From the NCBI GenBank assembly GCA_014762645.1, contig JABURP010000041.1:1-64000 (forward strand): 64,000 nucleotides of DNA, given 5' to 3'. The DNA is from Crocinitomicaceae bacterium. Its GTDB lineage: Bacteria; Bacteroidota; Bacteroidia; Flavobacteriales_D; Crocinitomicaceae. This document shows, one piece after another, positions 50,844-54,530 of this stretch (its first letter is position 1; each line of letters opens with the position of its first letter). The position numbers and the translations under genes were made by a program. A model generated the notes under the pieces. That model was not told the DNA's origin. It did not search any database and worked only from the letters and a program-made list of their open reading frames with translations.

Positions 50844-52997
50844 TTACTTCTCGTCTTCTTTTCCTTCCATTTCAGATTTAAGAGCTGACAATGCATCCAA
50901 ATCTCCGAGTGTTGATTTCTCGTTTGATTTGTTCAATTGCTCAACCGCTTTGCTTCCGCCTTTACCTTTTCCGGTAGACTTTTTCTTAGTGGTTGGTTTG
51001 TCTTCTCCTTCTTCAAATGTACGTGTATGAGAAACAACAATTTTCTTAGCGTCTTTGTTGAACTCAATAATTTTGAAAGGAAGTTTCTCATCTACAGTTG
51101 CATTGCTTCCATCTTCTTTCTTCATGTGTTTCTTCGGGCAAATTGCCTCTACACCATGAGGAAGTGAAACTACAGCTGCTTTATCTTTCTTGTCTTCGAT
51201 TATTGTCCCATCATGAACAGTTCCTTCAGCAAATTCTGCTTCAAACTCATCCCATGGATTTGCTTCCAATTGTTTGTGTCCTAAAGCAATTCTTCTGTTA
51301 TCTCTATCCAGTTCAAGAACTACAACCTCCATTTCGTCTCCAACTTTGCAGAACTCAGATGGATGTTTGATCTTCTTCTGCCATGAAAGGTCAGAAATAT
51401 GGATCAACCCATCAACACCTTCTTCAAGCTCTACAAATACTCCAAAGTTGGTAAAGTTTCTTACCGTTGCTTTGTGCTTAGAGTCAACAGGGTATTTCTT
51501 GTCGATATCTTCCCATGGATCCGGCATCAATTGCTTGATACCCAAAGACATTTTTCTTTCTTCTCTATCCAGGGTCAAAATAACCGCTTCAACTTCATCT
51601 CCCACAGTCATAAAGTCCTGTGCAGATCTCAAGTGTTGCGACCACGACATTTCAGAAACGTGAATTAATCCTTCCACACCTGGAGCAATCTCAATAAATG
51701 CACCGTAATCAGCAATTACGACAACTTTACCTTTGATTTTATCTCCAACCTGAAGGTTTTCATCCAACGCATCCCATGGATGTGGTTGCAATTGTTTCAA
51801 TCCAAGAGCAATTCTTTTCTTCGAATCATCAAAGTCTAGAATTACAACATTGATTTTTTCATCAAGTGATACGATCTCTTCAGGGTGATTAACTCTACCC
51901 CAAGAAAGGTCTGTAATGTGAATAAGTCCATCAACTCCTCCAAGGTCAATAAATACACCATAAGAAGTAATGTTCTTAACGGTACCTTCAAGTACCTGAC
52001 CTTTTTCAAGTCCACCGATAATTTGTTTCTTCTGCTCTTCAAGCTCTGCTTCAATAAGTGCTTTGTGAGAAACAACAACATTTCTGAACTCGTGGTTAAT
52101 TTTAACCACTTTGAACTCCATGTTTTTACCAACAAACTGATCGTAGTCTCTAATTGGTTTAACGTCAATTTGCGAACCAGGCAAGAATGCCTCAATTCCA
52201 AACACGTCAACAATCAAACCACCTTTAGTTCTGCATTTAACAAATCCAGTAATAACTTCTCCAGATTTAAGAACCTCATTAACTTTTTGCCAAGCTCTGT
52301 GGGTTCTTGCAGTTCTGTGAGACAATACAAGCTGTCCGTATTTGTCTTCCAATTGTTCAACAAACACCTCAACTGTATCTCCTACTTTAAGATCAGGATT
52401 GTACCTAAACTCATTTATAGGAATTACTCCTTCAGATTTGTAATTGACATTAACCACAACTTCTTTAGTCGTCATTGCGATAACCCTACCGTCAATCACT
52501 TCTTTCTCTTCAATTTGAGTTAATGAAGAATCGTATACTTCGTTTAGCTTTTCTACTTCTTCTTCTGTATGCCCTTCGTTCTCATAAGCATACCAGTCAA
52601 ACTCTTCTTTTGGAGGTTCTTCTGTTGTTTTGGTTTTCTTTTTAGCTGTCGTTTCTTCTTTTTCTGCTTTCTTCTCCTCTTTTGCTTCAGCTACTGGTGT
52701 TTCTTCAACTTTTTCTTCTTTAGCTTCTTCTTTCTTAGCTTCAGTTTTCTTAGTTGTTTTCTTAGCAGTAGTTTTCTTTTCTTCTTTCGCATCAGATTTT
52801 GACGCAGTCTTCTTCTTTGCAGTAGTTGACTTTGTTGAAGATTTACTTTCAGCTTTTTCTTTGGTTGAATCCGCTTTTGTTGTTGTCTTTTTAGTAGTAG
52901 ACTTTTTAGCGGTTGTCTTTTTTGCGGTAGATTTTTCCGCAGTGGCGTCTTTTTTATCCTCTTTTGCCTTAGAGTCTGATTTTTTCTCTTCTGCCAT
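50844..52997 (-). CDS. rpsA: 30S ribosomal protein S1 with Lys/Ala/Thr-rich N-terminal extension
   Basis: Six S1-type repeats (e.g. KGQVLEGTVKNITSYGVFIDLGGVDGLIHITDLSWGRVNHP). Start MAEEKK at 52997 preferred; alternative in-frame ATG at 53021. Confidence 0.94.
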   Translation of the reverse strand: MAEEKKSDSKAKEDKKDATAEKSTAKKTTAKKSTTKKTTTKADSTKEKAESKSSTKSTTAKKKTASKSDAKEEKKTTAKKTTKKTEAKKEEAKEEKVEETPVAEAKEEKKAEKEETTAKKKTKTTEEPPKEEFDWYAYENEGHTEEEVEKLNEVYDSSLTQIEEKEVIDGRVIAMTTKEVVVNVNYKSEGVIPINEFRYNPDLKVGDTVEVFVEQLEDKYGQLVLSHRTARTHRAWQKVNEVLKSGEVITGFVKCRTKGGLIVDVFGIEAFLPGSQIDVKPIRDYDQFVGKNMEFKVVKINHEFRNVVVSHKALIEAELEEQKKQIIGGLEKGQVLEGTVKNITSYGVFIDLGGVDGLIHITDLSWGRVNHPEEIVSLDEKINVVILDFDDSKKRIALGLKQLQPHPWDALDENLQVGDKIKGKVVVIADYGAFIEIAPGVEGLIHVSEMSWSQHLRSAQDFMTVGDEVEAVILTLDREERKMSLGIKQLMPDPWEDIDKKYPVDSKHKATVRNFTNFGVFVELEEGVDGLIHISDLSWQKKIKHPSEFCKVGDEMEVVVLELDRDNRRIALGHKQLEANPWDEFEAEFAEGTVHDGTIIEDKKDKAAVVSLPHGVEAICPKKHMKKEDGSNATVDEKLPFKIIEFNKDAKKIVVSHTRTFEEGEDKPTTKKKSTGKGKGGSKAVEQLNKSNEKSTLGDLDALSALKSEMEGKEDEK

Positions 52998-53016
52998 GAT
53001 TGGCTCAGATTTGTAT

Positions 53017-53067
53017 CTCATTTACCGGAAAATGAGAGAAATTTAACGTGCCGAATCCGGTTTCGGC
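53017..53067 (-). promoter_or_regulatory. rpsA 5' leader: two hairpins with mutually complementary 6-nt loops
   Basis: Minus strand: hairpin A 53067-53050 GCCGAA-ACCGGA-TTCGGC; hairpin B 53036-53017 CTCATTT-TCCGGT-AAATGAG. ACCGGA is the exact reverse complement of TCCGGT. Confidence 0.7.
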
Positions 53068-53081
53068 TTTATATCGAGGCG

Positions 53082-53113
53082 CAAAGATAGTCTTTCCTTT
53101 TGATTCTTACAAA
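53082..53113 (-). promoter_or_regulatory. rpsA promoter (TTTG-N20-TATCTTTG on minus strand)
   Basis: -33 TTTG (53110-53113), 20-nt spacer, -7 TATCTTTG (53082-53089); predicted TSS near 53077, about 80 nt upstream of ATG 52997. Confidence 0.78.
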
Positions 53114-54489: not shown

Positions 54490-54530
54490 AAAGACCGGTC
54501 TAACAGTTTTAGACCGGTCTTTCTTTTTTT
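54490..54530 (+). terminator. Intrinsic terminator
   Basis: Perfect 12-bp stem AAAGACCGGTCT / AGACCGGTCTTT followed by CTTTTTTT. Confidence 0.92.

Follow-up and report, generated by a model that had tools for sequence, protein, structure and literature searches.

The rpsA locus and its leader

The window (the whole 64,000 nt stretch of DNA that was analysed) carries on its minus strand, at 50844–52997, the rpsA gene coding for 30S ribosomal protein bS1. The product matched the NCBIfam model NF004953 at 916 bits (cutoff 720) and contains six S1-domain stretches; comparison with relatives backed a start at MAEEKK (AUG at 52997). The S1 domains are preceded by a low-complexity N-terminal extension of about 130 aa, rich in Lys, Ala, Thr and Glu (52610–52990, minus strand), the length of which varies among relatives. 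All rpsA leader positions given below refer to the same strand. Upstream of the gene, direct reading of the sequence bore out the Bacteroidota-type promoter proposed in a first-pass annotation of this DNA (53082–53113), with a −33-like TTTG at 53113–53110, a 20 nt spacer and TATCTTTG at 53089–53082. Transcription would start a few nt 3′ of this promoter, at about 53074–53079. A TAnnTT(T/C)G box was present just 5′ of the structured region in 147 of 151 homologous leaders (see below), at a median distance of 14 nt from the first hairpin.

The minimum free energy (MFE) fold of the leader consisted of exactly two hairpins, named here P1 and P2. P1 (53050–53067) has a 6 bp stem (GCCGAA/TTCGGC) and the loop ACCGGA, while P2 (53016–53037) has the stem TCTCATTT/AAATGAGA and the loop TCCGGT. 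Both had been noticed in the first-pass annotation, which described the P2 stem as 7 bp long, or 8 bp with the flanking pair; sequence and fold agree with the full 8 bp at 53037–53016. The hairpins are separated by the linker ACGTTAAATTT (53039–53049) and by an unpaired C directly 5′ of P2 (53038). P2 is followed immediately by UACAA (53011–53015), a candidate single-stranded contact for S1 or the 30S subunit. The end of P2 lies 18 nt from the AUG, close to the ∼19 nt estimated initially. No canonical Shine-Dalgarno (SD) sequence precedes the AUG in the window leader (there is no AGGAG); the spacer is AU-rich and extends from UACAA to a GCC triplet. The alternative in-frame ATG at 53021 (MRYKSEPI), located in the 3′ arm of P2, does exist, but an equivalent start was open in only five of the 151 leaders and it is considered incidental.

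Reading of the minus strand confirmed that the two loops are exact reverse complements over 6 nt, an event expected by chance once in 4096 for two given hexaloops. Their pairing (53061–53056, the 5′ kissing strand, with 53029–53024, the 3′ kissing strand) would form a loop–loop helix, P3. Since the folding z-score of the window leader alone was only −1.36, it is the comparative evidence that decides whether these structures are meaningful.

Conservation of the leader upstream of rpsA

S1 was matched in 99 of 99 relative genomes and the DNA upstream was taken; class- and phylum-level genomes were added. The gene-anchored set, defined as rpsA genes with a UACAA-like element at most 55 nt from the AUG, comprised 151 distinct leaders, each with a hairpin abutting that element. 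The distance from P2 to the AUG was 15–22 nt in 147 of these leaders, and the C preceding P2 was present in 148. UACAA itself was found in 150, a near-invariance that is partly by construction because the search required a UACAA-like element; independent support for it came from covariance-model matches. A homologous P1 was seen in relatives, separated from P2 by a linker most often 10–14 nt long with a (U/A)AA.. core, and the 5′ half of the leader folded better than its dinucleotide shuffles (mean z of −1.07 over 148 leaders).

Altogether, the same architecture was found before rpsA in more than 170 examined leaders from more than 15 families. The element extends through the order and is shared by several more families, among them f17, the largest genus of which is probably Flavobacterium, and f16, which probably corresponds to the Weeksellaceae. 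A clear loop–loop pairing was missing in a few leaders (L230, L202), and P1 in another (L203). Family f14 was without the element. In this family (L181–L185) the rpsA leader is very short and shows AGGAG (as AAGGAGA) just before the AUG, which makes it SD-like and an exception within a phylum where SD sequences are mostly ignored.

Covariation in P2 was analysed on a MAFFT alignment made without fitting to the structure (A2). Paired cells amounted to 97.4%, versus 75.9% in shuffled alignments, and double changes were observed in six of the seven pairs. The covariation score was 0.667, versus 0.246 after shuffling, and the signal was lost when the register was slid by one column. The second stem reported in the first-pass annotation thus shows the compensatory changes expected of a conserved helix.

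A covariance model comprising P2, UACAA and the AUG (R1) was built without gene context. It matched 94 of the 99 relatives with about one strong match per genome; second matches appeared only at E > 0.1. At the class level 53 of 295 genomes were matched, and S1 adjoined the element at all 30 loci fetched, so the element belongs to rpsA. It lies, like other r-protein leaders, in the 5′-UTR and initiation region of an r-protein gene, and its structure is conserved by covariation. The restriction to this gene suggests S1 as the ligand. A factor other than S1 could instead be sensed, be it a different r-protein, an RNA chaperone, cold shock, an sRNA or an RNase. The present data point to the ligand only indirectly, and kissing loops are sensitive to temperature and Mg; however, the rpsA-only association in the matches checked, together with features that fit the preferred ligands of S1, makes this explanation very improbable.

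Covariation of the two hairpin loops

The whole-leader MAFFT alignment (A1) misaligned P1 and the loops. It was left out of the statistics, which rely on permuting the real loops. When each of 59 genera was represented by a single leader, pairing between the two loops of the same leader had a mean energy of −11.8 kcal/mol, versus −6.1 ± 0.31 kcal/mol for permuted loops (z = −18); the best of 20,000 permutations reached −7.4. In a held-out set of 22 leaders, whose families were absent from the first set and which came from a model without loop-pairing information, the same comparison gave z = −8. When P1 was chosen blind to the loops, loop–loop complementarity of at least 5 nt was present in 69 of 112 leaders, compared with about 5% of swapped loops. 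When the pairing was jointly optimised, the native median was −11.3 kcal/mol, versus −5.6 kcal/mol in chimeras re-optimised likewise; the per-sequence chimera p-values err on the conservative side, since kisses are shared between close relatives.

The kissing strands were distinct in 114 of 143 leaders, which renders the loop–loop covariation decisive. All four Watson-Crick types contributed to the pairs, G-U being rare, and P3 was usually 5–8 bp long. Examples, besides ACCGGA/UCCGGU in the window, are AAUCCUGC/GCAGGAUU (leader L019), CAGAUUU/AAAUCUG (L162) and UUGGUAU/AUACCAA (L237). The two loops hence pair and change in a compensatory manner, as in kissing-loop RNAs. The hairpins and the complementarity of their loops might each have arisen by chance, a view that the single-sequence folding z of only about −1.4 would allow, but the permutation results across genera (z of −18 and −8) and the covariation of P2 leave it a negligible probability: a chance origin is refuted by the comparative data. 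A covarying kissing-loop pseudoknot is thus conserved before rpsA at a near-fixed distance from the AUG. The kissing-loop reading advanced in the first-pass annotation is strongly supported by the covariation of P2 and of the two loops, the conservation across families and the exclusive placement at rpsA in the matches checked.

The other possibility raised there, dimerisation of the mRNA through the self-complementary CCGG core, is not supported. Palindromes were not enriched in the kissing strands of the 143 leaders: those of at least 6 nt were found in four (4.2 expected), and those of at least 4 nt in 25 (32.7 expected).

A second pseudoknot before rpsA in a sister family

In the sister family f19, an H-type pseudoknot was found at the same place before rpsA, formed by a hairpin loop and a downstream strand before the AUG. 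It occupies the last 75 nt before the AUG (L251–L280 and L190–L196) and covariation was observed in f19 and also in f21; in one example, the loop GACUCU pairs with AGAGUC about 10 nt before the AUG. For 37 leaders of this type, two of them from f21, the native pairing had a median of −11.1, versus −7.5 with swapped tails, and values of −9 or below were reached by 95% of the native pairings and 32% of the swapped ones; this control is conservative, as the swaps include related sequences. The H-type leader has no Rfam family that we could find and is apparently undescribed. A second pseudoknot of different construction at the same position is what would be expected if the need for it came from the protein and not from the sequence.

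A further pairing, P4, is a weak candidate for a hairpin around the start codon. In the window (52993–53004), GCC at 53004–53002 could pair with GGC at 52995–52993. Where the start reads AUGGC, an upstream GCC was found in 87 of 106 leaders; the 40 leaders with AUGUC had none, and in these CAG or UCAG often faces CUG(A). Pairings of at least 3 bp were found in 67% of native leaders and 61% of swapped ones, which makes the control weak; the association of GCC with AUGGC, though strong, is confounded by relatedness. A triplet of the UTR that matches codons 2–3 may possibly form such a start-codon hairpin.

Possible role of the leader in feedback by S1

Because Bacteroidota ribosomes ignore most SD sequences, S1 and mRNA structure weigh unusually in start-site choice. 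The arrangement described above suggests that the rpsA mRNA would begin with a cis-regulatory RNA of ∼60 nt in which P1 and P2 kiss through P3 to form a compact pseudoknot, followed by single-stranded UACAA, an AU-rich spacer and the AUG about 18 nt from P2. It probably functions as a translational autoregulator (an autogenous operator) of bS1. The leader would act at translation initiation, since it would sit where the mRNA exits the 30S subunit, near bS1, and contains no terminator-like U run. When S1 is limiting, 30S subunits would initiate on this SD-less leader. When in excess, free S1 would bind the pseudoknot and the UACAA/AU-rich strand, a site for which it would compete with S1 on the 30S subunit, and so reduce S1 synthesis.

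Several observations are consistent with S1 sensing. S1 binds SELEX-derived, tmRNA, preQ1 and rpsO pseudoknots with high affinity, the SELEX ligand being of the H type (PMC7708055), and ACA is present in the loops of S1 SELEX pseudoknots (PMC3879156). The leader combines a pseudoknot and ACA, both features of the ligands selected in vitro. Further, in E. coli the SD-less rpsA translation initiation region (TIR) is repressed by bS1 itself through competition with 30S-bound S1 (PMC10931766). Sensing of S1 by the leader is therefore plausible, and the best available explanation.

The same features could, however, only raise basal initiation. The element would then be a constitutive enhancer of translation, similar to a standby site or an IRES: docked on the 30S platform, the pseudoknot would expose UACAA and the AUG, and high S1 synthesis would result, without feedback, in a phylum lacking SD use. 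The near-fixed spacing to the AUG and UACAA agrees with such a role, ACA elements are known translation enhancers (PMC3879156), and standby binding at tisB via S1 is pseudoknot-dependent (PMC7708055). One would expect an enhancer of this kind at other highly expressed genes too, but about one copy per genome was found, before rpsA, and we regard this explanation as rather unlikely.

The position of the leader also bears on a role in sensing ribosome composition. P2 would sit at the mRNA exit site, near S1, so that 30S subunits lacking S1 might initiate specifically on the leader, or S1-replete ones might unfold it differently. A precedent exists in the same order, as bS21-less ribosomes act on rpsU in F. 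johnsoniae (PMC9976891). Neither complementarity nor other direct evidence speaks for this model, and S1 is essential in E. coli to accommodate structured mRNAs on the 30S subunit (PMC3858243); it seems decidedly unlikely.

Some points also weigh against feedback by S1 itself. A few leaders are without a clear kiss and family f14 uses a short AGGAG leader instead. To our knowledge, E. coli S1 represses its own synthesis without a kissing pseudoknot. Tentatively, control of S1, a main factor for mRNA recruitment where SD pairing plays little part, might rely across the Bacteroidia on tertiary RNA structures beside the rpsA start codon. These would read free S1 or the S1 occupancy of the 30S subunit and would exist in at least two forms, as kissing hairpins in the Flavobacteriales-like families and as an H-type pseudoknot in f19; with what is at hand, the case for this wider proposal falls short of even.

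Comparison with known leaders

The E. coli rpsA leader folds into a series of individual hairpins, spaced by AU-rich gaps and without loop–loop pairing. In the leader described here, two adjacent hairpins kiss through a conserved loop–loop helix and UACAA follows P2, so the γ-proteobacterial fold, compared by description, is not shared; the suggestion that the architecture differs from that of E. coli is strongly supported. The two have in common that they belong to the same gene, are structured and poor in SD sequences (no canonical SD precedes the AUG in either), and that feedback by S1 in E. coli operates by competition with the 30S subunit; the S1 TIR fold is described as conserved in γ-proteobacterial families (PMC10931766, a 2023 review). 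In the leaders of rpsO (S15), too, the mRNA of an r-protein folds into a pseudoknot where initiation takes place, and a 'kissing loops' form was proposed for one species, M. tuberculosis (PMC8470358). They differ in that they serve another protein and hide an SD; the rpsA leader lacks an SD, and many families have conserved its kissing form. The same order also offers bS21 (rpsU), a 30S protein that takes part in mRNA selection and is under autogenous control (PMC9976891); this control relies on an extended SD read by bS21-less ribosomes and not on a covarying leader fold. Finally, the S1 SELEX and tisB standby pseudoknots are likewise bound by S1, those from SELEX with ACA (PMC7708055, PMC3879156), but they are of the H type, lack kissing hairpins and are not rpsA leaders.

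As far as we could find, the kissing rpsA leader is undescribed in Rfam 15 and in the literature searched, although an earlier description is possible. Eckert and Weinberg (2020) reported 20 computational r-leader candidates, several of them in Flavobacteria/Bacteroidia and hence in the same phylum; the main text of that work makes no mention of an S1/rpsA leader (PMC7247131). None for S1 is included in Weinberg (2010), and, apart from a supplementary list of 64, the structured 5′ regions that the F. psychrophilum transcriptome paper names belong to other genes. To the extent of this search, a kissing-loop leader of rpsA is new, the S1 leader was previously known only from another phylum, and control of S1 in Bacteroidota had not been described. 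The leader is a compact and clearly defined RNA. It offers a natural catalogue of more than 100 compensatory loop pairs that can be tested in F. johnsoniae at once, and with it as a defined ligand one could study the recognition of an mRNA by its own OB-fold product, a protein of little sequence specificity.

Searches with Rfam 15 over the window leader gave no match at E ≤ 5, so that no r-protein leader family of that release matches it. Among 39 related loci searched at E ≤ 1, none reached the gathering score except for Flavo-1 and tRNA, neither of which was identified as the leader. The Flavo-1 RNA (RF01705, 47.5 bits, above the gathering score) lies upstream of rpsA at L081:619–770, minus strand. 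Elsewhere in the window, sub-threshold matches to L20_leader and RefA9 fell on a terminator-like hairpin near 54490–54522 and not on the rpsA leader. This hairpin (AAAGACCGGUCUAA...UUAGACCGGUCUUU, 54490–54525, from the Rfam alignments) is strong, has the appearance of a bidirectional terminator, and follows a thiolase-like gene.
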